Below are positions 3,920 through 60,247 of a stretch of 64,000 nt of DNA, piece by piece; positions within the stretch are counted from its first letter, which is position 1, and each line of letters starts with the position of its first letter. Source of the DNA: Dryococelus australis (Eukaryota; Arthropoda; Insecta; Phasmatodea; Phasmatidae); the NCBI GenBank assembly GCA_029891345.1, contig CM057000.1, positions 135,249,663-135,313,662 of the forward strand. The letters run 5' to 3'. The notes below the pieces were generated by a model, which was not told the origin of the DNA, ran no database searches, and saw nothing but the letters and a program-made list of their open reading frames with translations. The position numbers were made by a program, and so were the translations under genes.

Positions 3920-4332
3920 TATAGGCTGTTCACGATGAAGTGAGCACTTTTGAAATCCTCCTTAGAAAAACGTCACGGCATACATTTTAACGGGCGCCCT
4001 GAATGACATGCGCCCGTCAAAGTTGGTAACGATGGATGGAAAGTAGCTCAATATCTTAAAGTCGAATAAAGTGTTAGGTAACCATTTGTGATCATTTAAA
4101 TTATTTCTTGCGCTTTCTGTTTTCTTTAACGCCTCAGTATGTAAAAATTACCAGATTTACCAAATGTTAACATTTCTAATAATTTCATAGTTTCGCTTGA
4201 CCGACGCGTGAATATAGTGGTGAGTCCGAGGACAATGATAATATTACGTAAGGCGGAAGAATACACGAAGTGTGTAAAAGTACATCTTAAGCAGGGCTTT
4301 CAAAAGTGCTCATTTAACGTGAATGGCCTATA
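3920..4332 (-). mobile_element. MITE family A, copy 2
   Basis: Full length and inverted. It begins TATAGGCTGTTCACGATG and ends GTGAATGGCCTATA, with the complete family interior in between, including GGATGGAAAGTAG, GTGTTAGGTAACC and AGCAGGGCTTTCAAAAGTG. Confidence 0.92.
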
Positions 4333-4489
4333 CGAATCATCATCGTACGAAGCAGTTGGGATAGATAATTTCTACTGGCTACGACCGCTACCTTATTTAT
4401 TTGTTGTACGAACTGTCGACAAGATATTGAGCCAATATCTTTTTATTTTATTTCAATAATCTCCGAAGTCTATTCGGAAACGCTGCTAA

Positions 4490-5044
4490 TAGTCCAGGAA
4501 TATTAGTCAAATGAGGGCAAGAATCTCGGAATGAGAGATAGTCAGCTATAAACTTGTATAAACCTTTATTTTGACACCCTAAAACTTGTCTCAAAACCTA
4601 CCTATCGTAGGGTGTCCGCGACCACAGATATTTCAAGGTCAAAGGTCAAAAAATCGATTTTTTTACATATTTATTGCAAATATCTCGTTTCCTATGGGTT
4701 TTATGCTATTTGTATTTATTATAAATATTGTAGAGGATTAAATTCTCTACAACTTTTGTTTAAACATTTTTTTTATATCTTGAACCATTTTCGAGATAGA
4801 GGGCAGAGCGCGCGCAGTGTTTAACTATTTAGAGTATCATTCGAGGTCAACCTGTAGTCCCGATTAAAAACACGCCGTATAAAGTTTATAAATTATTGAT
4901 AAATATATAATTCTAAATAATTTGCATTTTTATTAACTATTACGTTATAATTAATAATTTTTTTCAATAATTCAGTATCTATTCATTAAATAATACTTAC
5001 CTAATCGTGTACTTATAAAGTTACTAAGGGAAATACTTTAATTA
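4490..5044 (+). repeat. left terminal inverted repeat (about 555 bp)
   Basis: It matches the reverse complement of 6366-6911 with only scattered substitutions and small indels. Both arms hold GGTCAAAGGTCAAAAAATCG, two tandem AGGTCA-like half-sites that resemble a nuclear-receptor DR1 element. They also share a GGGCAGAGCGCGCGCAGTG patch and an AT-rich inner third. Confidence 0.93.
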
Positions 5045-5206
5045 TTTTTTAATTCTAATCTTATTTATACTAATTACTTCCTAACTAAATAAAAAGAAAA
5101 GAATTAAATTTTTAATTAGTGTTTTTATTGAAAAATACCATTTCATACATTTATGAACTTTGAAATTAAAAAAATTGAATAATAAAAAGAACTACAAGTT
5201 CTAATT

Positions 5207-6125
5207 TCAATTTTCTTCTTCTTCATCATCGTCTTCCAGTGGCTGTAAAATTTCAAATTCCTCCGTGTTCTCTTCTACAGTTCTTAGTCTTTCTGCTTGA
5301 GGATTTAAGTTTTTATTATCGTACCAAGCTTTTGATAAAATATTAGCGTGTGAATCACGAAAAGAAATGATCGTAAAAGCTCCTACTTTTTTCGTAATTA
5401 TTATATTGGTTAAGTACTTTTGTTGTAGCCTTGAAATAATAGTTTTATCATCTGGTACATACCCTGTCAAGACATATTTAAGCTCTTTTAGTGTAAATTG
5501 TGAATCGTTATTATTTTCTATGTAATTGAAAATCTCTATCATAGCTTCTGAAACTTGATTATCTTGACGAAGTTTCGGATGAGACGATGGTACTTTAATT
5601 GTGAAGAAATTCGTATAACAAACAGCATGGTATTTAGCTTCAGCAGCAACTAAATCATATTGAAAAAAATATACGATTTTTCACCAATTCTCCGAAAGTA
5701 TCACCACGTTCTTCTGCTTTTTTCATAACATTGTCTTTAAACTCAAGAGTACTCACTGCACTTATCTTGCATCTATACTTTTCTTTTTTCTTTGTCTCTG
5801 CGGCCTCGTCAGCTATTTCACCACAAAATAAACACTGCTTCTTGAAATCCAACACTTCACTTAGTCTTTTATGCGGTACAGTTGGAGAAGCTGTAGTTTC
5901 ATCTTGTTCTAGTCGCCGTTTTGCTGCTAATATACAATTTTCTCTAATGTAAACAGTTCGGCACTTTTCATGCACTTGTACAGAGGTTACGATTTTTAAA
6001 TAATCAATAAGACCGTCGTTTCGTTCGATACTTGCAGTTCTCAGAGTTTTTATACCACGCACTAGATTCACTAATGATTCACCTTCCGAATCTGACTTTT
6101 TACATATAAAACACAAATTATCCAT
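5207..6125 (-). pseudogene. transposon-borne cysteine/histidine-rich protein, one frameshift
   Basis: The reading frame starts at the ATG at 6125 (MDNLCFICKK). It runs to a stop at 5655, then continues in the next frame from about 5662 to the stop at 5207. Removing one A from the 7-A run at 5663-5669 would join the two into about 305 codons. Visible motifs, in order: CFIC (residues 5-8) with HEKC about 60 residues later, then CLFC with YHAVC in the second frame. This gives two CX2C...HX3C sets, probably two small zinc-binding modules. The C-terminal part has a helical segment around TLKELKYVLTG and an acidic tail (EDDDEEEEN). From memory, similar N-terminal modules open much longer uncharacterised proteins in many arthropod genomes; here the protein stops after that part. 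A poly(A) signal AATAAA lies on the minus strand at 5129-5124. I infer DNA or RNA binding rather than catalysis. The frameshift may be a real mutation or a homopolymer sequencing error. Confidence 0.75.
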
Positions 6126-6365
6126 CACTCTTAAAATTGTACGTCCGTAGTACGATTCAAAACTAACGAATAACAGTGGTTCCTTGAAAAAGAAACCGGT
6201 CGTGAGTAAGCAATTGAACATCTGTCCTTTCTGGCTATAAATAGAAAGGTTCGTACTATACAATAGAGGTCCGTTGTCCCAGGTATAATTTTTAACGTTT
6301 TAAAAGAATCTATAAGTTTACGGATTTCAATATAGATGTACTTAATTATTTTCTACTTAAAATGT

Positions 6366-6911
6366 AATTAAAGTATTTCCCTTAATAACTTTATAAGTTC
6401 ACGAGTAGGTAAGTATTATTAAATGAATAGATACTGAATTATTGAAAAAAATTATTAATTATAACGTAATAGTTAATAAAAAATGCAAATTATTTAGAAT
6501 TATATATTTATCAATAATTTATAAACTTTATACGGCGTGTTTTTTAATCGGGACTACAGGTTGACCTCGAATGATACTCTAAATAGTTAAACACTGCGCG
6601 CGCTCTGCCCTCTATCTCGAAAATGGTTCAAGATATAAAAAAAATGTTTAAACAAAAGTTGTAGAGAATTTAATCCTCTACAATATTTATAATAAATACA
6701 AATAGCATAAAACCCATAGGAAACGAGATATTTGCAATAAATATGTAAAAAATCGATTTTTTGACCTTTGACCTTGAAATATCTGTGGTCGCGGACACCC
6801 TACGATAGGTAGGTTTTGAGACAAGTTTTAGGGTGTCAAAATAAAGGTTTATACAAGTTTATAGCTGACTATCTCTCATTCCGAGGTGAAACCCCTAATA
6901 TTCCTGGACTA
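6366..6911 (-). repeat. right terminal inverted repeat (about 546 bp)
   Basis: Inverted partner of 4490-5044. The outermost bases on the + strand are CTAATATTCCTGGACTA. The arm includes GAGGTGAAACCCC near 6883-6895, which is not matched in the left arm. Confidence 0.93.
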
Positions 6912-6914
6912 TAA

Positions 6915-7540: not shown

Positions 7541-7722
7541 TATGAATTTCAATAACTCCATAAAACCTGGGCGAAGCGATGGTGCGCTGTATTTTAATAA
7601 CCCCACAAAAACTGAACGAAGCGATATTTCTATTTTAAACGTAAAACCTGAGCGAAGCGTTGGTGGGCTGTATTTTAATAACTCCATAAAAACTGAACGA
7701 AGCGATATTTCTATTTTAAACA
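7541..7722. repeat. 81-bp tandem duplication with CGAAGCG motif
   Basis: The block ACTGAACGAAGCGATATTTC starts at 7611 and again at 7692, so the period is 81 bp. The intervening half (ACCTGRGCGAAGCGNTGGTG ... TTTTAATAAC) is also doubled, at 7565 and 7650. About two and a quarter units. Confidence 0.85.
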
Positions 7723-8810: not shown

Positions 8811-9232
8811 TATAGTCTATTAACAGTTTCGTCACAATTTTCGAAATTAACCTCCAAAAAATCATCCTATGTGTGACGTGTTTTGTTCTTTCCCAAAAAT
8901 TTAATGTATCAAAAGCTTTTTATACTTGTGGTAACATGAAATTACCTCAATTTTGTTCAACTGAATTTTTATCTATATTTTATTAATAAATTGTAATATA
9001 TTTTTATAATTAATATTACTAATAGCAGTGGGAAAATAGTTGTGTTGGCAACGCCTAGTAAGATAATAGTTCTCGTGCAATCACAGTGAGTGCGCACGAT
9101 TGCGGTGCGTTGTCCCTTTGGTGTAATATTCTCGACTCGATTAAGTTTTGTTTGCACGAGGCGGAGGATTATCCTGGAAGTAGAACTTTAGCAGGGCTCC
9201 AGAAAGTTTCGTAGTAACCGTGAACGGACTAT
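8811..9232 (-). mobile_element. MITE family B, copy 1
   Basis: Inverted full-length copy. The + strand starts TATAGTCTATTAACAGTTTC and ends AACCGTGAACGGACTATG. Landmarks are AACGCCTAGTAAGA, CACGAGGCGGAGGATTATCC and GAACTTTAGCAGGGCT. Confidence 0.88.
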
Positions 9233-10011: not shown

Positions 10012-11218
10012 TCACAAGATGGCGAACAGTCATCACCGTTTTTAAACACAAATCTTTGAAAAATCACCCCATGTGTTACGCAATTAGTAATTTCCTAAAT
10101 ATCCCATGTATCAAGCGTTTTTATACCTCTGCAAACACAGGCGTATCTTACTTTCCGTCAAATTAAAGTTTTAACTATATTTTATTTATGCACGATAATA
10201 TTTCTTTTGTAATAAACACGAATAAAAACAGTTAGAAAATATCTGTGGTGGTAGCGCCTAGTAATAAATAGTTCTCATGCAAAATAACATTCCAACCACG
10301 GGCGCAGGGATGCGGTATGTTGTCCTCTGGTGTAAATTTCCAGACTTAGTTAAGGATGAAATAAAGCAATTGCCTATGGAGCACTGCACCCAACTGTATA
10401 AGGTGAACTCGTAAAAAAAGTAATACAGGCACCATAAAAATGGTCTGAAAAGTGATTTATTCTGTAGGCCCATATGAAATAAGAATGTATATATTTTGCA
10501 ACATTATAAAATATTTTACCCAACATATAATTTTCAAATGTAAAAAAAATAATCGATTGAAAGAGAGATTTTTTTTTTTCCATTCTGGATTCTTCGGAAA
10601 AAAATAATTCGCAAGAAAATCTCCTTCAAGAAAGATCGCCATACTGTGATCATGTGTAATAAAATCATAGTAATAATGTATCATATCAATTCAATAGTTA
10701 ATTTTTATTTACGTCAGTTTCAGCCATAAATGTTTGTGACAAATGAACGTATATAAAAATAATTATAGAAATGATCCCCTAGTATATTACTATTACAATT
10801 TTCTTACACATAATTATAGTAGACATTATGACGATATTCCAAGATGAACATTTTCTTGCAAATTCTACTTTCCAAAGCATCCAGGATGGAAATGCGCTTT
10901 ATTTAAGTTAAAAATACAAAATATTTTAATCGATTTTTTTTATTTAAAAAGTATATTTTAGTAATTTATTTTATAATTTTTCAAATATATGCATACTTAT
11001 TTCATATACAGTACAGCATAAATCGTACTTTTCTGACAATTGTTATGTTTGTACTACTCTTGATGAGTTATTCACATTGTATAGTTGGGTGCAGTGCGTC
11101 ATAGGCAGTTGCTTTACTTCAACCGTAAGCTTAGCTTGCACGGGGCGGAGGAATATCCTGGAAGTAGAACTTTAGCAGGGCTTCAGAAAAGTGTGAAGTA
11201 ACCTACAAACAACTATAC
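10012..11218 (-). mobile_element. MITE family B, copy 2, split by a foldback element
   Basis: Family B sequence runs from about 10012 to 10353 (landmarks AAATCACCCCATGTG, GCGCCTAGTAATAAATAG). It resumes at 11126 (TAAGCTTAGCTTGCACGG) and ends at 11218. The gap is a 772-bp insertion. Confidence 0.85.
10354..11125. mobile_element. foldback element G nested in family B copy 2
   Basis: Ends are inverted: GGATGAAATAAAGCAATTGC on the left against GGTTGAAGTAAAGCAACTGC read from the right, continuing for about 45 bp. The inner arms also pair imperfectly: TCTGGATTCTTCGGAAA near 10585 against the reverse of the block near 10870. It is non-coding. The flanks fit a 3-bp TAA duplication (10351-10353, 11126-11128). 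Confidence 0.75.
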
Positions 11219-12545: not shown

Positions 12546-12962
12546 GTATTGGCTTTTCACCTTTGACTGATCACTTTCGAGATCAGCCTTTGAAAGATGA
12601 CACTGCCGCTGCATGCATAAATTGTAACAGGATTATTGACTAGCATGCGCATGGTGAAGTTTGTAACTACTTACGGAAAATAGTTCTATGTCTAAGCGCT
12701 GAATTAAAAGTGTTAGGTAAATAAATATGAAGACTGAAATAATTTATTGTTGCTTCCTCTTATTTTGACGAGTAAATGTTTAAAAATTAGCACATTTATA
12801 ACATATTTACGTTTTCAATAATTCTACCGTTTACTTGCATGAATAACGTGATCAGGCCCGCGGCAATGTTAATTTTAATATATGGCGGAAGAATACACAA
12901 TGTCTATACAGGTGGATGTTAAGTAGGGATATTAAAAGTGCTCAGTTTACAGTGAATGGCGT
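12546..12962 (-). mobile_element. MITE family A, copy 3 (old)
   Basis: Diverged inverted copy. Landmarks AAGTGTTAGGTAA, GCATGAATAACGTGATCAGG and GGCGGAAGAATACACAATG remain. The termini are eroded (TTGGCTTTTCACC, GTGAATGGCG). Confidence 0.75.
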
Positions 12963-14384: not shown

Positions 14385-15238
14385 TATAGGCTGTTCACGG
14401 TCAAATGAGCCCTTTTGAAAGCCCTGCTTAAGATCTACTTACATGCACGTTGGTAGTCTTAACGACTAATGTAAAATTAATATTGTAACAGGCCTCATCA
14501 CTTTATTCATGCATCGGTCCAGTGAAATTGTAAAATTATTAGAAAATGAATTTTTAAAATCTGCTCATTTTAACACTTTCATGCATTAAAAAAAAAAACA
14601 CAAAGCGAAGTAAATAACTTAAGTCGTCACAAATGGTTACCTAACACTTTTTATTCGACGTAGTTAGCCTATATGGTAATACTTTCCCTCCATCCTGACC
14701 AATTTTACTGGGCGCATGCCACTCAGTGCGCCCGTTAAAATATATGCAGGTAAAGGCTGTTCACGATAAAGTGAGCACTTTTGAAATAAACCTTAGAAAA
14801 CAGTCACTGCTCCTGCCTGCATATATATGAACGGATGCACTGAGCAACATGTGCCCAGTAAATTTGGTAACGGCAGACGGAAAATAGTTCCAACTATTAA
14901 CATTAAGTAAAAAGTGTTAGGTAACCATTTGTGATAATTTAAATTATTTATTTCGCTTTCTGGTTTTCTTTAAATGCTTCCAAGTGTAAAAATTATCAGA
15001 TTTGTAAAATATTTACTTTTCTAATATTTCTACAGTTTCAACTGACCGACGCACGAACAATGTGATGAGGCCCACAGCAATATTAATTTTACGTAACGTG
15101 GAGGACTACACAACGTGGATACAAGTAGATCTAAAGCTTGGCTTTCAAAAGTGTTCATTTTCCCGTGAACAGCTCATAGGAGCAATGATTTTTCTATTAG
15201 GTTGATTTCAAAAGTGCTCACTTTATCGCGAACCGTCT
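14385..15238 (+). mobile_element. MITE family A, copy 4, interrupted by copy 5
   Basis: Starts TATAGGCTGTTCACGG and runs to GCAGGTA at 14752, then resumes at 15179 with GGAGCAATGATTTTTC and ends CGCGAACCGTCTT. The interruption is copy 5. Confidence 0.88.
14753..15176 (-). mobile_element. MITE family A, copy 5, nested in copy 4
   Basis: A 424-bp inverted family A element (AAGGCTGTTCACGATAAAG ... CCGTGAACAGCTCA). It sits in copy 4 with TA on both sides (14751-14752, 15177-15178), showing a TA target site. Confidence 0.88.
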
Positions 15239-15361: not shown

Positions 15362-15612
15362 TGGAAAAATCTGATAATTTTATACCTGGAAGCATTATAA
15401 AAAAAAACCAGAAAGCGAAATAAATAATTTAAATTGTCACAAATGGTTACCTAACACTTTTTAGTTAAGGTTAGTACTTGAAACAATTTTCCCCCTGTCG
15501 TTACCAAATTTACTGAGCACATGTCGCTCAGTGCGCCCGTTAATATATATGCAGGAGCAGTGACTGTTTTCTAAGGTTGATTTCAAAAGTGCTCACTATA
15601 TCGTGAACACCC
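15362..15612 (+). mobile_element. MITE family A, copy 6 (truncated)
   Basis: Carries the right-hand portion of a family A element, ending TTTCAAAAGTGCTCAC ... GTGAACACCC. It is the reverse complement of the first part of copy 5, including the private phrases GGAGCAGTGACTGTTTTC and ATATATATGC. Confidence 0.8.
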
Positions 15613-15875
15613 TTTACCTTCATATGTGTTAACAGGTGCACTGAGTGACATGCGCCCAGTAAAGTTGGTCGTGATGGAGGGAAAGTATTACTGTAATACT
15701 ACGTCGAATAAAAAGTGTTAGGTTACCATTTGTGACGACTTACATTATTTATTTCGCTTTCTGTTTTTTTTTAATGCATGAGATTGTTAAAATGAGCAGA
15801 TTATAAAAATTACTTTTCTAATAATTTCACAATTTCGCTGGACCAATGCATGAATAAAGTGACGAGACCCATGGC
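15613..15875 (-). mobile_element. MITE family A, copy 7 (truncated)
   Basis: Reverse complement of part of copy 4 (GGGAAAGTATTACTG, GTGTTAGGTTACCATTTG, GGACCAATGCATGAATAAAG). It abuts copy 6 at the point where copies 4 and 5 abut, so the pair is an inverted duplicate of that junction. Confidence 0.8.
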
Positions 15876-16310: not shown

Positions 16311-17928
16311 GGCGTAATAATAAATACAATGACGTGATGTATGTACCAACACCAAGTACCCTGTACCAGAAGTTTCATACCTAAAATTTTCTTTATTGGG
16401 ACACTGGCATTTGCACTGATTATTTTAAAATGTAAGTACACATCACGGACAAAAACAGAAAGAAAAAAATCTAGCAGACACCACTAAAAAATTAAACAAA
16501 TTTTAAATTACTATAACGACCGAAGATTTTCTCTCTGTTTAAAGCTTGGGCAGGAGGTATCTTCAAACGCAGAATGGAACACCTATGCAAATTTTCTGAA
16601 CCGATGAAACATGTTACTTTGTCTTTCCAAACAATTATAAAAAGATTCGTCCTAATGAGTATGACGTATTCTCCTCTTAGTGTGTCCCGTCTTCCTTAAG
16701 CTATGGTATATTAGGCAGGATGTGTGTGAACACAGAGAAGGCCACAAAATTCACCTGAAATACCTCCAGGTGTTGTGCACATTTTTCCTGCATACGTTCG
16801 GGACTGAGAAACATAGAGAGTACCCATACGGTTTGGCTTCGACTATTTGCTCCACCGAAATTTTGAATGTCATAACGTAGCGTGACTCATCAAAAAGTCG
16901 TACTACTTTAATCCTATGATAGAATTACTTATTATGTGAAGGGCGCAAAAAAAATCCTATTAGGTACTCCTTTGATTTTATAATGAATGTCTCGAATCGG
17001 GAAAAAAGTTTTGTAATGCGACATGGTAAAATGGCATTTAGTTTCTGACCTGCAACCTGCTGGCATCATGGCAAAACTTCAAACGAGATTGTTTTGCCGC
17101 TGGCGAAGTTCAAGAGAGTTCAACGACCCAGAGAAACACATGGAAGTCATTTACAAGCTTATAATATAAGCCCATACACTCCCTGTCTAGCGCACAAAAC
17201 TCGCATTCTATTTTGGCGTACTGCATTGTAATAGAACTGCCATTAAATTTAAATAAGCAGTATTAAGTCTACTATAGACATAAACATTTCAGGCCAGATG
17301 AACAGGTGGTGTCACGTCTTACAAATAACTTATAATTTTTTATGATTAGTGTAACTAACCATAAAGAGGCCTTACTTTTTTATGGCGACTGAGCTCTAGA
17401 TTTCGGTTATACTACATTAGCAATATAAAATCACAACATAGAGCAATACGCACTAATTCCGAATTAGTGATTTGCAACTGTAGAATCATTTAACTGAATC
17501 TTCATTTGTTTAGCTGTTATCTGCTGGTCAATCAGTGGAATGCCGCGAGGTTTTATGCCAGGCAAGTAAAATTCACAAGGATTCGATGGAAATCAGTGTT
17601 TAATCAGTAAACACCAGCGACTAAAATTATCGGTAGAATTTCACTGATTCAAGCTCAGCAGTTTAAAAAACTCTGCAGGCAAATTCACCGTACTGGATTG
17701 TAGTGAGCTGATTATCGGAGAAGTTCGTAAGAGGCGGGCGTCGTCGGACATGATAGAACAAAATATCCTAACTGACGTCCTCGTGCGTTCAAAAAAATTG
17801 TTTGGAGACTCCCGCAACTGCCAGCACAAACGACGGAGTTCACCAAAACAATGTTTTTGCATATAAATTTCATATGGTTCTTTTCTCGTGCGCTTGTTTT
17901 CTGGTAACTTAATTTCAGATCGCAGCTA
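16311..17928. other. anonymous AT-rich DNA
   Basis: No convincing coding frame, RNA gene or repeat. The last bases, TTAATTTCAG (17909-17918), look like a splice acceptor just ahead of the satellite, but no exon follows. Confidence 0.5.
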
Positions 17929-19673
17929 CTGCATTCCGACAGCAATATCCTCTGAACTTTCTTGGGCACCTTGTTTAGGCAAACTGGTGCCACGTGGCTC
18001 TGGAAATTGCAGCTTCTATACTGCATTCCGACAGCAATATCCTCTGAACTTTCTTGGGCACCTTGTTTAGGCAAACTGGTGCCACGTGGCTCTGGAAATT
18101 GCAGCTTCTATACTGCATTCCGACAGCAATATCCTCTGAACTTTCTTGGGCACCTTGTTTAGGCAAACTGGTGCCACGTGGCTCTGGAAATTGCAGCTTC
18201 TATACTGCATTCCGACAGCAATATCCTCTGAACTTTCTTGGGCACCTTGTTTAGGCAAACTGGTGCCACGTGGCTCTGGAAATTGCAGCTTCTATACTGC
18301 ATTCCGACGGCAATATCCTCTGAACTTTCTTGGGCACCTTGTTTAGGCAAACTGGTGCCACGTGGCTCTGGAAATTGCAGCTTCTATACTGCATTCCGAC
18401 GGCAATATCCTCTGAACTTTCTTGGGCACCTTGTTTAGGCAAACTGGTGCCACGTGGCTCTGGAAATTGCAGCTTCTATACTGCATTCCGACAGCAATAT
18501 CCTCTGAACTTTCTTGGGCACCTTGTTTAGGCAAACTGGTGCCACGTGGCTCTGGAAATTGCAGCTTCTATACTGCATTCCGACGGCAATATCCTCTGAA
18601 CTTTCTTGGGCACCTTGTTTAGGCAAACTGGTGCCACGTGGCTCTGGAAATTGCAGCTTCTATACTGCATTCCGACGGCAATATCCTCTGAACTTTCTTG
18701 GGCACCTTGTTTAGGCAAACTGGTGCCACGTGGCTCTGGAAATTGCAGCTTCTATACTGCATTCCGACAGCAATATCCTCTGAACTTTCTTGGGCACCTT
18801 GTTTAGGCAAACTGGTGCCACGTGGCTCTGGAAATTGCAGCTTCTATACTGCATTCCGACGGCAATATCCTCTGAACTTTCTTGGGCACCTTGTTTAGGC
18901 AAACTGGTGCCACGTGGCTCTGGAAATTGCAGCTTCTATACTGCATTCCGACAGCAATATCCTCTGAACTTTCTTGGGCACCTTGTTTAGGCAAACTGGT
19001 GCCACGTGGCTCTGGAAATTGCAGCTTCTATACTGCATTCCGACGGCAATATCCTCTGAACTTTCTTGGGCACCTTGTTTAGGCAAACTGGTGCCACGTG
19101 GCTCTGGAAATTGCAGCTTCTATACTGCATTCCGACGGCAATATCCTCTGAACTTTCTTGGGCACCTTGTTTAGGCAAACTGGTGCCACGTGGCTCTGGA
19201 AATTGCAGCTTCTATACTGCATTCCGACGGCAATATCCTCTGAACTTTTTGGGCACCTTGTTTAGGCAAACTGGTGCCACGTGGCTCTGGAAATTGCAGC
19301 TTCTATACTGCATTCCGACAGCAATATCCTCTGAACTTTCTTGGGCACCTTGTTTAGGCAAACTGGTGCCACGTGGCTCTGGAAATTGCAGCTTCTATAC
19401 TGCATTCCGACGGCAATATCCTCTGAACTTTCTTGGGCACCTTGTTTAGGCAAACTGGTGCCACGTGGCTCTGGAAATTGCAGCTTCTATACTGCATTCC
19501 GACGGCAATATCCTCTGAACTTTCTTGGGCACCTTGTTTAGGCAAACTGGTGCCACGTGGCTCTGGAAAGTGCAGCTTCTATACTGCATTCCGACAGCAA
19601 TATCCTCTGAACTTTCTTGGGCACCTTGTTTAGGCAAACTGGTGCCACGTGGCTCTGGAAATTGCAGCTTCTA
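17929..19673. repeat. 92-bp tandem repeat array, 19 units
   Basis: Nineteen head-to-tail copies, almost identical. Unit 15 (19217-19307) lacks one C; unit 19 lacks the last two bases; unit 18 alone has GGAAAGTG for GGAAATTG. One site alternates A or G (GACAGC or GACGGC) in the order AAAAGGAGGAGAGGGAGGA. Each unit holds the palindrome GCCACGTGGC, with a CACGTG E-box. Each also holds an inverted pair GGCACC ... GGTGCC, with inner GTTT/AAAC pairing that would fold as a hairpin. The open frames through the array follow from the period (92 is not a multiple of 3) and are not genes. Confidence 0.98.
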
Positions 19674-19718: not shown

Positions 19719-20140
19719 AAAGGTTGTTCACGATAAAGTGAGCACTTTTGAAATCAACCTTAGAAGAAAGTCACTGCTCACACCTGCATACATTGTAACG
19801 GGCGCACTGAGTGACATGCGACCAGTAAAGTTGGCAACGTTGGAGGGAAAATAGTTCCATATCTTAACGTCCAATAAATATTGTTGGGTAACCATTTGTG
19901 CTACCTTAAATTATTTCCATCGCTTTCTCTGTTTTTTTATGCGTAGAAGAGTACAAATCAGCATATTTTTAAAACGTTTACTTTTCTTATGATTTTACAG
20001 TTTCACCGGACCGACGCATGGATAAAGTGATGAGGCCATTGCCAGTGATAATTTTACATAAGGCGTGAGAACACACAACGTGCATACAAGATCTTAAGCA
20101 GGGCTTTCAAAAGTGCTCATTTTACCGTGAACAGCCTATA
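19719..20140 (-). mobile_element. MITE family A, copy 8
   Basis: Full-length inverted copy immediately after the 92-bp array (AGGTTGTTCACGATAAAGTG ... ACCGTGAACAGCCTATA). Confidence 0.92.
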
Positions 20141-20246
20141 GTCTGCGAGCATCGAAACAGTAGCGGGAGAGAATGTCCCGTTGGACTGTTTGAAAGTGCG
20201 ACTGAATATATGAATTGCAGACGTTTGGAATTATTTTAATGTATAG

Positions 20247-20675
20247 TATAGGCTTTTCACGGTAACATGAGCACTTTTGAAAGCCCTGCTTGAGGTCAAT
20301 TTGTATGCAAGTTGTGTAATATGTTCCGCCTTATGTAAAAATAACATTGTAATTAGTATCATCACTTAAGTCATGCGTCAGTCAAGTAAAACTCTAAAAT
20401 GATTAGGAAAGTAAATATTTTACAAATCTGCTAATTTTTATACTTCGCTCCAAAAAAAAAAAAGCATAAAGCGAAATAAATAATTAAAGTTATCACAAAT
20501 GGTTACATAACACTTTTTATTGGACGGTACGGTATGGAACTACTTTCCATCCATCGTTACCAACTTTACTGGGCGAATGTCACTCGGTGCGCCTGTTAAA
20601 ATATATGCATGCAAGGGGCCGTTACTGTTTTCTAGGGTTCATTTCAAAAATGCTCACTGTATCGTGAACAGCCTT
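20247..20675 (+). mobile_element. MITE family A, copy 9
   Basis: Full-length forward copy (TATAGGCTTTTCACGG ... ATCGTGAACAGCCTT). It lies head-to-head with copy 8 across a 106-bp spacer. Confidence 0.92.
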
Positions 20676-22319: not shown

Positions 22320-23168
22320 GTAGGCTATTCACGGTTATTTTAGCGCTTTCGAAATCAACTGCTCAAAAATGTCACTGCCCCTACCTGCATGTATTTTAAT
22401 GGCCACGCTGACTGGCAAGCGACCAGTTAAGTTGGTAACGACGGAGGTAGAGCGTAATCTATTCACGTTACTTCACACTTTTCTGAAGCCCTGCTGAAGT
22501 TCTACTTCCTAGATATTCCTCCGCCTCGTGCAAACTAAGCTTAACTAAGTCTAGAAAATCACACCAAAGGACATCGCACCGAATTCGTACGCACCTAGTT
22601 GTAATAATATTCTGCATGAGAACTATTTCTTACTAGCCGCTACCAACACACATGTTGTCTCGCTGTATTTATTCATATTTATTATAAATAATATATATTA
22701 TAATTTATAGATAAGATATAGGCAAAACTTCAAATTAAACGAAAAATACGAAGTTTTATGTTGACAGAGAGATAAAACGGCTGCGATTAATGACGTATTT
22801 AGTAAATAGTTAAACACGTCATACATGGGATGATTTTCCAAAGTTTTGATTCAAAAAGTGTGAATAAATCGCAAATAGACCCTAGTCCCGTCTGTTATAA
22901 CGTTGAATGTAAAGTGTTAGTAAAACCTTTGTGAATACTGAAATTATTTCTTTTTCTTTCTCTTTTTCTTCATCCTTGTTAAGAATGAGCAAATTTGTAA
23001 AATATTTACTTTCCTAGTAATTCCAAAGGTTCACTTGACCGACGCATGGATATAGTGATCAGGCCAACGGGAACGCTAATTATACGCATGGCGGAAGAAT
23101 ACTCAATGTGTTTTCAAGTATATCTTAAGCGCAGCTCTCTAAAGTTCTCAGTTTACCTAAAACAACCT
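22320..23168 (-). mobile_element. MITE family A, copy 10, split by a family B element
   Basis: Begins TAGGCTATTCACGG, is interrupted after 22456, and resumes at 22885 (GTCCCGTCTGTTATAACG). It ends near 23168 with eroded termini. Confidence 0.85.
22457..22882 (+). mobile_element. MITE family B, copy 3, nested in family A copy 10
   Basis: A 426-bp element with TA at both junctions (22455-22456, 22883-22884). Landmarks are CTGAAGCCCTGCTGAAG, GGATATTCCTCCGCC... variants and ATTCAAAAAGTGTGAATAAA. Confidence 0.85.
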
Positions 23169-23593: not shown

Positions 23594-24015
23594 AAAGACT
23601 GTTCACGATAAAGTGAGCACTTTAGAAATGAACCTTTGAAAAAATTCACTGCCCCTGAATGAATATATTTTAATGGACACACTAAGTGACGTTCACCCAG
23701 TAAAGTTGGTAAGGATGGATGAAAAGTAGTTCCATATATCAACGTCAAATAAAAATTATTAGGTAACAATTTGTAGTAACTTTAAACTAATTCATTAATT
23801 TTTTTTTTAATGCATCGAGGTGTAAAACTGAACAAATTTGTGAAGTATTTACTTGCTTAATAATTTCACACTTCTATTTGACCGACGCATGAATAAAGTT
23901 ATGAGGCCCATAGCAACGTTAATTTTACGTAAGGCGGAGGAATACACAACGTGTATTCAAGTAAATCTTAAGCAGAGCTTTTAAAATTGCTCATTTTAGC
24001 GTGAACAGCCCATAG
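23594..24015 (-). mobile_element. MITE family A, copy 11
   Basis: Full-length inverted copy (AGACTGTTCACGATAAAGTG ... GCGTGAACAGCCCATAG). Confidence 0.9.
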
Positions 24016-26329: not shown

Positions 26330-26758
26330 TATAGGCTGTTCACGGTAAAACGAACACTTTTGAAAACCCTGCTTAAGATCTACTTGTATGCACGTTGTGC
26401 GGTCTTCCGCCTTATGTAAAATTAACAGTGGCAATAGCCTCATAACCTTATCCACGAGTCGGTCCAGTGAAACTGTAAAAACATAAGAAAAGTAAACATT
26501 TTTAAAATCTGCTAATTTATACACTTCTACGCATTAAAAAAAAAAAATAGAAAGCGATGGAAATAATTTAAGTTAACACAAATGGTTACCCAACAATTTT
26601 TATTCGACGTCAAGATATGGATCTACTTTCCCCTCCGTCGTTACCAACTTTACTGGGCACATGTCACTCAGTGCGCCCGTTAAAATATAAGCAGGTAGGA
26701 GCAGTGATTTTTTCTAAGGTTGATTTCAAAAGTGCTCACTTTATCGTGAACACCCCTT
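26330..26758 (+). mobile_element. MITE family A, copy 12
   Basis: Full-length forward copy, close to the apparent consensus (TATAGGCTGTTCACGG ... TTTATCGTGAACACC). Confidence 0.93.
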
Positions 26759-29302: not shown

Positions 29303-29734
29303 TATAGTCCATTCGCGGTTACTTCAGCCTTTTCTGAAGCCCTGCTAAAGTTTTACTTCCAGGATATTCCTCCGCCTTGTGGAAACTAAGCTTGACTAAC
29401 CCTGGAGAATTACACCAGAGGACAACGCACTTCAGTCATGCGTACTCAGTGTAACAGTATTTTGTGTAAGGACTATTTCTCACTAGGCGCTTCCAACATA
29501 CCTATTTTCACCCTGATCTTTATTCAGATTATTAATAAATGAAGCATTATAATTTATAGATAAAATATGAATAACATTTCAATTTAACAGGGAAAAAAAA
29601 GTACCTTTTTTGAACACAAGTATAAAATGCTTGTGATACAGAGCGTATTTAGGAAATAACTAAACGCGTCATAAACGGGGAGATTTTTCAAATTTTTGAT
29701 TCAAAAAGGCTGAAGAAACCGTGAATGGGCTATA
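29303..29734 (+). mobile_element. MITE family B, copy 4
   Basis: Full-length forward copy, TATAGTCCATTCGCGG ... CCGTGAATGGGCTATA. Landmarks are AGGATATTCCTCCGCC and GGAAATAACTAAACGCGTC. Confidence 0.93.
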
Positions 29735-29771: not shown

Positions 29772-30186
29772 GTTGGCTGTTCACGGTAAAATGAGCACTT
29801 TTGAAAGCGCTGCTTAGTAACTACTTGTATACACGTTGTGTATTCTTTCCCCTTACGTAAAATCAACATTGCCATTGGCCTCGTCACTTTATTCATGCGT
29901 TGGTGAAGTGAAACTGTGAAATTATTAGAAAAGTAAATATTGCACAAAGCTGCCTATTTTTACACTTCGACGCATTAAAAATTACACAAATGATTTAAGC
30001 TATTACAAATGGTTTACTAACACATTATTTTCGACGTTAATATATGGAACTACTGTCACATCCGTCTTTACCAACTTTAATGGACACATGTCACTCATTG
30101 CGCCAGTTAAAACACATGCAGGTAGGGACAGTGACTTTTTCTAAGGTTAGTTTCTAAAGTGCTCACTTTATCGTGAACAGCCTATA
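29772..30186 (+). mobile_element. MITE family A, copy 13
   Basis: Full-length forward copy, only 37 bp after family B copy 4 (GTTGGCTGTTCACGG ... ATCGTGAACAGCCTATA). Confidence 0.92.
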
Positions 30187-39100: not shown

Positions 39101-39436
39101 TAATATATTTAGAAGAAATTTCTAGCACCTGCCTTATTTTACCCAACTGGCTACCACACTAAATTGTTTTTATATGATTATATAAATAACTTAATGGCTA
39201 ATTAATTAACATTAATTGTCTTGCGCGCGCTTTATAAAATTGCTAATATTTAATTTATTTCCAAAAAAAAGATTTAAAGATGTACATGCACAAGGTCCTG
39301 GGTTCGATCATGAATCCACCACTTACAAAAATGGCGGAACGGATATTTTCTTTAGTAAATTCAGCAGGCGACTGATACTTTCGCCAATAAATTATCTGCT
39401 TCACGTCACTCTCATACTATCTACCACCAGCCCTTG
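36134..39436. other. 3.3 kb anonymous AT-rich DNA
   Basis: No repeat family of this window and no supported exon. GGTCCTGGGTTCGATCATG near 39293 is a box B-like scrap of a tRNA-derived SINE. The minus-strand open frame ending near 38838 was examined and rejected as it lacks an ATG. Confidence 0.45.
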
Positions 39437-39864
39437 TAAAGACTGTTTACGGTCAAATGACAACTTTTGAAAGACCTGCTTGGGATCTACTTATATGCTC
39501 GCTGTGTATTCTTCCACCATATGTGAAAGTAACATTGCCATGGGTCTGATCACTTTGTTTATGCGTCAGTCAAGTGAAACTGTGAAATTATCTGCAATGC
39601 AAATATTTTGCCATTTCGTGGGTTTTAACGCTTATAAGCATTGCAAATAGAGAAACTAAAATTAATAAATTCAGTATTCACAAATTTTAACCTAGAACGT
39701 ACAATTCAACGTTAGTCCATGGAAATATTTTTTTTTATCCGTCGTTACCATCTTTACTAGGCAAATGCCAGTCAGTGCATTCGTTAAAATATACGTAGTG
39801 AGGGGCAGTGACATTTTTCAAATGTTGCTTTAAAACGTTATCAAATAACGGTAAACGGTCTATA
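39437..39864 (+). mobile_element. MITE family A, copy 14 (diverged)
   Basis: Forward copy (AAGACTGTTTACGGTC ... ACGGTAAACGGTCTATA). Both termini carry the matching change GTTTACGG / ACGGTAAAC, so the inverted repeats have stayed complementary. Confidence 0.85.
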
Positions 39865-45303: not shown

Positions 45304-45690
45304 TATAGTGCGTTCATGGTTACTTAAAACTTCTAGGATGCACTGCTAAAGTTCTACTTTCACGCTATTCCCCCCGCTCTATGCTAGCAGTGCTTAACCG
45401 AATCTAGGAAACTACACCAAAATTACAATGGACTTCATTCGTATGCACTCACGTTAATAATATTTTGCATGTATATTATTTTTGGGCATTTATCCATGTT
45501 CTTATTCATTTCTATTGTAAATTAAATATTATGATTTATGTATAAAATATAAGTACCATTTTAACTTAACAGAAATTTAGATACTTTTATTTAAACACAA
45601 GTATAAAGTCATGTGATATGTCACGTATTTAGGAAACAGCCAGATATATAGGTGATTTTACGAAGTTTTGATTCAAAAACTGTAGTGATT
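45304..45690 (+). mobile_element. MITE family B, copy 5 (right end lost)
   Basis: TATAGTGCGTTCATGG start, landmarks ACTGCTAAAGTTCTACTTTC and TATTTAGGAAACAGCC, and loss of the right terminus after TTCAAAAACTG. Confidence 0.8.
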
Positions 45691-58234: not shown

Positions 58235-58908
58235 TAATAGGTAGAGCACATCAGTAAATGATGTTTTATTGAACAGAATTATCATATAATTTATAATTAC
58301 GTGATTATTAACTGGTGGAGATTAAATGGAATATCATTATGCTAATTAACTCCTGTATGATTAATTATCACTCGCCGCTACTATTGTGATTCCAAATGGA
58401 AAGTCCCCACCTTATTCATGTTGCCGGATGCTGTTTCTTGTAGGCGGTTAACGACGGCCGGACATACCCATCTCCGTGTCCTTCTCGTTGCAATGGCTCG
58501 ACGAGGAAAGACGCCGCGCCCAGCGTTACGCTAGCCTATATCGGGCGCGTTGTTTAACATATTCAGCCCAAATTACTGGCCTGGTAGAGGGGTTTCTGCA
58601 GCTGATTTTCGCAGTGCGTTGATGTAATCACGCTCGTGTCCTGGTTCAGTGTTTGAAGGTGTGATGAGGCAGGCCGTCCACCTAAGGCCTGATCACATCG
58701 TACACTACGCATGCGCCGAGTGGCAGGATCGACGTGCGTGTGTGCGTGCGGCATTGAAACTTAGCGGGAATATTCCCTGCGTGGAACCAGCATCTTGCGA
58801 GTGCGACACGACTGTGGAGAATACTTGAGCTGCTCCCAAGCAAACACTATTGACATTGATCCCTGCATAGGACACAGTGGTAGTGGGGAGAGTTTAACGA
58901 GTCACTGA
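58235..58908. other. anonymous DNA with a TAAT-rich block
   Basis: 58318-58372 contains GCTAATTAACTCC and GATTAATTATCACTCG, homeodomain-type sites. 58440-58760 is GC-richer without a recognisable gene. Confidence 0.35.
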
Positions 58909-59331
58909 TATAATCCGTTCACTGTTACTTCACAATTTTCTGAAGCCCTGCTTAAGTTCTACTTCCAGGATATTCCTCCGCCTCGTGCAAACTAAGCTTA
59001 ACTAATTACACCACAGGACAACGCACCGAATTCGTGCGCTGACAGATGTAATAATATTTTGCATGAGAACTATTTCTTACTAGGCGCCACCAACACACAA
59101 GTTTTTTATCACTGTTTTAATTCATATTTATTATAAATGAAATATTATCATTTATAAATAAAATATAAATGAGACGCCAATTTGACGAAAATTAAGATAA
59201 TTTTATGCTAACAGAGGGATAAAATGCTTCTGATAAATGGCATATTTAGGAAATAACTGAAAATGTTATACATGGAGTGATTTTCAAAATGTTTGATTCA
59301 AAATGTGTGAAGAAACTGTGAAAAGACTATA
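58909..59331 (+). mobile_element. MITE family B, copy 6
   Basis: Full-length forward copy, TATAATCCGTTCACTG ... ACTGTGAAAAGACTATA. Landmarks are CCAGGATATTCCTCCGCC and TACTAGGCGCCACCAAC. Confidence 0.92.
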
Positions 59332-59382
59332 GATTTCCATCTTTTTGCAACGTTAAATATATATATTAAAAAATTTTTAAAA

Positions 59383-59796
59383 AATCGCAGTTTCTTCACA
59401 TTTTTCAAATCAAACAAAATCACCATAATATGTATAACGTGATTTGTTGTTTCATGAACATATCACGTTTAACAAATATTTTTTACTTCTGTTAATATAA
59501 CAATACCTTAATTTTAGACAATTTGAATTTTTACTTATATTTTCCTATAAATTATAATATTTAATTTATAATTAATATGGACTATAACTGGGAGAAAACA
59601 TGGGTGTTGGTAACGCCTAGTAAGAAATAGTTCTCATGTTAAATATTATCACAGTATGCACGAATGAAGTGCGTTGTCAAATTAGTGAAGTTTCCAATAC
59701 TCCATTAAGCTTTATTTGCATAGAGCAGGGGAATATCGTGAAAGATTAAGTTAATCAGGGCTTCAGAAAAGTTTGAAGTAACCGTGAATGGACTAT
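59383..59796 (-). mobile_element. MITE family B, copy 7
   Basis: Inverted copy 51 bp from copy 6, ending AACCGTGAATGGACTATA. Landmarks are GTAACGCCTAGTAAGAAATAG and AGGGCTTCAGAAAAG. Confidence 0.9.
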
Positions 59797-59821
59797 ATCA
59801 GTTATCAACTGCCTACATTTT

Positions 59822-60247
59822 AAAATCTGTTCATGATAAAGTGAACACGGTTGAAATCAACGTCAGAAAAGTCACTGTTCCTGCCTGCATATATTTTAAC
59901 AGGCGCACTGAGTGACATACGACCAGTAAAGTTGGTAACGATGAATGGAAAGTAGTTCCATATCCAAACGTCAAATAAAAGAGTGTTTGGTGACGATTGG
60001 TGACAACTTAAATGATTTATTTCGCTTTATGTTCTTCTTTAATGCTTCGAAGGGTAAAAATGACCACATTTGTAATGCATTTACTTTTATAAAAATTTCA
60101 CAGTTTCACCTGACCGAAGCATGAATAAAGTAATTAGTCCCATGACAATGTTGATTATACATGAGGTGAAAGAATACATTCCTTGTGCATGCAAGTAGAT
60201 CTTAGGGAGGGCTTTCAAAAGTGCTCATTTTACGTAAACAGCCTATA
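59822..60247 (-). mobile_element. MITE family A, copy 16
   Basis: Full-length inverted copy (AAATCTGTTCATGATAAAG ... TACGTAAACAGCCTATA) 25 bp beyond family B copy 7. Confidence 0.9.

Follow-up and report, generated by a model that had tools for sequence, protein, structure and literature searches.

A transposon with half-kilobase inverted arms, a TAA target-site duplication and a Cys/His-rich gene product in which no catalytic domain is recognised

P elements generate 8-bp target-site duplications, end in 31-bp terminal inverted repeats (TIRs) and encode a THAP (C2CH) finger. PIF/Harbinger elements duplicate 3 bp of the form TWA and encode a DDE nuclease together with a Myb/MADF-like second protein, and AcademX elements encode a DDE transposase with an XPG-type nuclease. 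DNA binding in the Tc4/pogo group is of the helix-turn-helix (HTH)/CENP-B type, and Tc4 is reportedly a fold-back transposon. Tc4 has been reported in nematodes, arthropods and tardigrades, its target-site duplication being TNA within C-TNA-G (PMC11071193), and for Fot-type pogo elements TAA duplications are given as 341/385 as printed (PMC7386202). A third report lists duplications of 3 bp for Zator, 3 or 4 bp for AcademX, and none or 1-4 bp for PHIS (PMC10045372). Mutator-like elements (MULEs) combine TIRs of >100 bp and varied internal sequence with 8-10-bp duplications (PMC5225508). The KP-type P elements, putative repressors, are described as having an interrupted transposase with a retained DNA-binding domain (PMC12393704).

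The 2,422 bp transposon analyzed here spans positions 4490-6911 of a 64-kb window (the whole stretch of DNA that was analyzed). Its host is a eukaryote, probably an arthropod to judge from sequence style. An identical, inverted 17-bp TIR, TAGTCCAGGAATATTAG, lies at both termini (4490-4506 on the plus strand, equal to the reverse complement of 6895-6911), in agreement with an earlier note that had described a complete element with these ends. That note had also proposed arms of about 550 bp. Inverted arms are indeed present (4525-5052, plus strand; 6357-6885, minus strand), measuring ~530 bp with 98.3% identity over 530 aligned bases. They do not begin at the very ends: each arm is separated from its TIR by an unmatched spacer, 18 nt long at the left end (4507-4524) and 9 nt long at the right (6886-6894), for which the arm alignments show no counterpart at the opposite end. 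The arm alignment contains no substitution across 4525-4987 and six in the inner 65 bp (4988-5052). The arm pattern fits recent arm-to-arm copying, or a young element whose homopolymer lengths are noisy in the assembly. A second copy of the element was not found in the 64-kb window at E <= 0.01.

Note that the only three arm differences within 4525-4987 (at 4658, 4865 and 4926) are single-base changes in homopolymer run length, which suggests that homopolymer run lengths in the assembly are possibly unreliable. Each arm also carries one perfect DR1-type sequence, AGGTCAaAGGTCA (4636-4648, plus strand; 6762-6774, minus strand), which we take to be a nuclear-receptor-type site. At up to one mismatch these are the only two sites in the window, where the chance mean is 0.21 and 2 of 100 shuffles gave at least two; the two count as a single event because the sites in the arms are copies of each other. 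In addition, a 25-bp near-perfect hairpin (TTGTAGAG...CTCTACAA) is found in each arm, at 4728-4752 and 6659-6683. The left-arm hairpin (4728-4752) has a folding energy of -13.9 kcal/mol (z -6.6), and a search of IMG/VR with the arm hairpin pattern returned 0 matches.

TAA borders the element on both sides, at 4487-4489 and 6912-6914. Taken alone this match is weak, because 1.9% of window positions (1188/61572) give a 3-base match at element-length distance; support is supplied by related empty sites. These were sought by joining the flanks after removal of the element and one TAA and comparing the joined sequence with the window. Matches crossing the junction were obtained at 29326-29369 (33/44 identical) and 11191-11151 (31/41 identical), together with a weaker match at 9194-9167 that starts no more than 7 bases to the left of the junction. 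All three belong to one repeat family, and the related empty sites contain a single TAA, as the previously suggested TAA duplication implies. When pieces of the window were joined at random, a crossing match occurred in 48 of 1979 joins and at least two such matches in 1 of 1979. Uncut pieces gave crossing matches more freely (85 of 300 random window pieces, with at least two in 61 of 300) because the window is repeat-rich; the random joins were taken as the proper control.

A profile built from 7 other copies of this repeat block matched the joined flanks with an E-value of 8.4e-6 (nhmmer; 21.8 bits, model positions 25-93), a test that is partly dependent in that the 7 copies were themselves retrieved through the joined flanks. 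The alignment is ungapped at the junction and has an 11-base insertion further right. By this alignment, the host repeat that the element interrupts has its left part at 4469-4489 (plus strand) and its right part from 6915 to ~6973. Of the single flanks, the left gave no match to the profile at this stretch and the right an E-value of 4.5. The junction sequence CTGCTAAAGTT is present in 4 of the 7 profiled copies (29304, 9125, 11110 and 45305), the remaining three reading CTGCTTAAGTT, CTGCTGAAGTT and CTGATTAACTT. In score, the joined site falls well short of the 7 profiled copies (86-103 bits) and is on a par with the distantly similar ~430-bp repeats; thus, the target is a decayed or distant repeat member. 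We conclude from these alignments that the element inserted at CTGC-TAA-AGTT, duplicating TAA, within such a member, where the empty site reads CTAAA. With its inverted ends, long arms, a duplicated TAA and a location within an older repeat, the element is a real DNA transposon.

The surroundings are populated by a ~430-bp repeat family with many copies starting ATAGGCTGTTCACGGT. With 20246-20675 as the query, copies ~68-80% alike to it lie at 2221-2650, 3923-4333, 12551-12956, 14385-15173, 15367-15869, 19720-20140, 22898-23157, 23595-24014, 26330-26755, 29775-30183, 39436-39835 and 59827-60247; one copy ends ~155 bp left of the element. Copies of a second, distantly similar family are located at 8811-9232, 22455-22821, 29304-29671, 45305-45636, 58904-59802 (a large imperfect palindrome), 10030-10354 and 11110-11216, and the element is nested in a member of this second family that is decayed or distant. 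A kinship of the element with the small repeats of the window through a common ATAG[GT]C start was considered and dropped, the stretch being too short. Further to the right, a tandem array at 17927-19673 comprises 19 copies of a 92-bp unit with 99% matches; it is very uniform and hence probably recent. Two 81-bp tandem copies (7561-7721; 93% alike) with the motif GCGAAGCGAT are situated 650 bp right of the element.

The arms enclose a single gene, which is encoded on the minus strand with an ATG at 6125 and a stop at 5207. Two measures give it a strong coding signal: between the arms the longest open frame has 214 codons, a length that none of 500 dinucleotide shuffles equalled (maximum, 142 codons), and the G+C content at the three codon positions is 0.47/0.36/0.26 in the first gene piece and 0.45/0.28/0.22 in the second. 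The earlier proposal of exactly one gene is upheld, but this gene is split over two overlapping minus-strand frames, 5655-6125 and 5207-5680, with the frame change falling within ~5655-5680. The first frame, beginning with the ATG at 6125, encodes a C-x2-C...H-x2-C set and a second C-x2-C; the second frame encodes the second H-x2-C pair, a stretch within 5270-5563 predicted to fold as a winged helix, and an acidic tail. Neither this H-x2-C pair nor the tail can be reached without crossing the frame change, which may be a true lesion or an assembly error; the arm comparison shows that homopolymer lengths do vary at this locus. Being in two frames, the gene may not yield its product at all. A candidate polyadenylation signal, AATAAA, is located at 5124-5129 (minus strand), 78 nt past the stop; as one of six AATAAA on the minus strand of the element it is weak evidence, possibly a chance occurrence given the AT-rich DNA.

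Read through the frame break, the product comprises 305 residues with two zinc-ligand-like sets, C5-x2-C8...H52-x2-C55 and C98-x2-C101...H166-x2-C169. Two sets had been recognised before with the spacing CX2C...HX3C; both are present, but with H-x2-C in place of HX3C. The acidic tail that had also been pointed out is evident, with D or E in 13 of the final 22 residues and K/R absent, and could represent the natural C-terminus of a protein that is small but complete. Residues 1-283 have a calculated pI of 8.85. Folded alone, the segment 5270-5563 was predicted as helix-strand-helix-helix-strand-strand, the winged-helix order, with a mean pLDDT of 55. A Foldseek search with this model returned 821 matches at E <= 10, none of them at E <= 0.001 (best 0.072). 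The best 50 of the 821 include winged-helix domains (the MCM8 WH with probability 0.97 and E 0.08, Cdc6, MecI, BlaI and MarR-type) and also many COP9/proteasome chains, the top match being a COP9 signalosome chain. The winged-helix model of 5270-5563 is accordingly a weak one, and modelling the read-through product at full length was uninformative (pLDDT 33). As a lead, the two C2HC sets and the winged helix would form a DNA-binding module.

No catalytic domain was recognised in the product by Pfam at E-values up to 10, in line with the earlier impression that no DDE core is visible, and no Pfam family scored above its cut-off. Matches below the cut-off were to glutamate synthase (E 0.0009 and 0.005), PHD_NSD (0.067 and 3.5), EF-hand_6 (0.15), DpnI_C (0.21 and 0.63), PHD_4 (0.66) and zf-C4_ClpX (0.91). 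PDB sequences gave no match to the product below E 0.02. Assignment to a known family by way of the protein was dropped, all Pfam matches being below cut-off and PDB sequences without a useful match. In IMG/VR no relative was found with either gene piece, with the read-through product aligned to additional probe sequences or with those probes alone; likewise, GTDB genomes contained no relative detectable with the first gene piece or with the alignment of read-through product and probes. Note that these two collections hold viral and prokaryote DNA, where absence is expected for a eukaryotic gene and weighs little either way. The 17-mer TIR was found in 4 IMG/VR contigs, with end matches spanning 17-23 bp plus a few matches of 14-18 bp, as would be consistent with chance. 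Among the literature matches listed, the titles and opening lines of the abstracts mention no such element. Certain uncharacterised arthropod and cnidarian proteins of ~1000 residues, annotated as 'tesmin/TSO1-like CXC', presumably have a similar Cys/His N-terminus, which we take to show the same order of C2HC sets followed by a similar HTH-like stretch.

We favour, with moderate confidence, the reading that this is a non-autonomous cut-and-paste transposon with long TIRs that retains, from a larger transposase, the N-terminal region for DNA binding, is mobilised in trans and possibly acts as a repressor. The element would then probably depend on a helper elsewhere in the genome. The DDE-type transposase of a longer relative would recognise the 17-bp ends and the arms, cut the element out and insert it at a TAA cleaved with a 3-bp stagger. 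The gene of the element would correspond to the N-terminal DNA-binding portion of that transposase, with two C2HC zinc-binding sets and a winged helix, the catalytic part having presumably been lost through internal deletion, so that the product could no longer cut. If made, the product may bind to the arms and act as a competitor or a poison of the full enzyme, in the manner of KP-type P elements, and the near-identity of the arms would reflect youth or the copying of one arm onto the other. The description as a truncated transposase draws on the absence of a catalytic part and on the order of the domains, because Pfam, PDB sequences, IMG/VR and GTDB yielded no relative. The presumed likeness to the N-termini of the arthropod and cnidarian proteins also weighs toward it. 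A more far-reaching version, which we consider unlikely, would place the element in an undescribed superfamily with TAGTCC ends, half-kilobase arms, TAA duplications and a transposase N-terminus of tandem C2HC/C2HC/winged-helix organization, the present copy being a self-regulating derivative that codes for the module alone.

A different origin of the gene would apply if a non-autonomous element had captured a host or accessory DNA-binding gene unrelated to its transposase. Such capture has precedent in Pack-MULEs, which are described as taking up host gene fragments between long TIRs (PMC5225508). Against it, the start and stop of the gene both lie between the arms and neither Pfam nor the PDB sequences link the product to a host family, so that we regard this origin as improbable. 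The earlier note had envisaged a non-autonomous element with a domesticated accessory gene; the first part of this proposal is retained as the best fit, whereas a truncated transposase is a likelier source of the gene than domestication. About as improbable in our estimate is a fold-back element of the Tc4/pogo type with an unrelated or eroded gene: a 3-bp TNA duplication and long fold-back arms are present, but the empty site is CTAAA and not CTNAG, and Pfam detects neither a Tc5/CENP-B-type HTH nor a DDE domain.

Were the element autonomous, the small Cys/His-rich protein would itself serve as the mobility protein, an unusual one, in a transposon group not yet described. It is the product of the sole gene in an element having both ends and a target duplication, and it falls into no Pfam family above cut-off, although a missing family match is weak evidence when it comes from one sequence. 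However, its ~305 residues are taken up by zinc-binding-like sets, a winged-helix-like stretch and the acidic tail, with no catalytic domain recognised, and the reading frame is interrupted; autonomy is thus very improbable. That the element is an assembly-made inversion or another artefact, the objection raised in the earlier note for the event that no empty site existed, has a negligible probability. Assemblers can generate near-identical arms, but here an exact TAA stands on both sides, the spacers adjacent to the two ends are unlike each other, and 6 substitutions separate the arms over their inner 65 bp. The related empty sites with a single TAA in the same window answer the objection and weigh heavily against an artefact.

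At present the locus is a single, well-defined insertion at a TAA target that we assign to no superfamily: a 3-bp duplication fits Tc4/pogo, Harbinger, Zator and AcademX, whose proteins are not recognisable here. With Tc4, of the Tc1/mariner-pogo group, it shares long inverted arms and a 3-bp duplication of the TNA type (TAA here). In contrast to Tc4, the target CTAAA misses CTNAG by its last base, and unlike in Tc4/pogo elements no DDD/E or Tc5-type HTH domain is recognised by Pfam. TAA also agrees with the TWA of PIF/Harbinger, but neither the DDE nuclease nor the Myb/MADF-like protein has a Pfam match in the element. The duplication is likewise of the length found in Zator and within the 3 or 4 bp of AcademX; the ITm-type DDE transposase of the former and the XPG-type nuclease domain of the latter are not recognised by Pfam, as would be the case in any non-autonomous copy. 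Mutator-like elements and Pack-MULEs have long TIRs in common with the element, but their duplications are 8-10 bp rather than 3 bp. If no parent exists, the movement of an element free of catalytic function would require a new explanation. If one does, a Cys/His-rich protein without a Pfam match would gain a name and a function. The element may resemble KP and other internally deleted P elements of Drosophila in being small, having intact ends and encoding a product that would keep DNA binding without a complete transposase. It differs from P elements in its 3-bp TAA duplication, ~530-bp arms and C2HC ligand order. With a parent sharing the same ends, it would be a transposon that makes its own DNA-binding inhibitor, comparable to P and KP.
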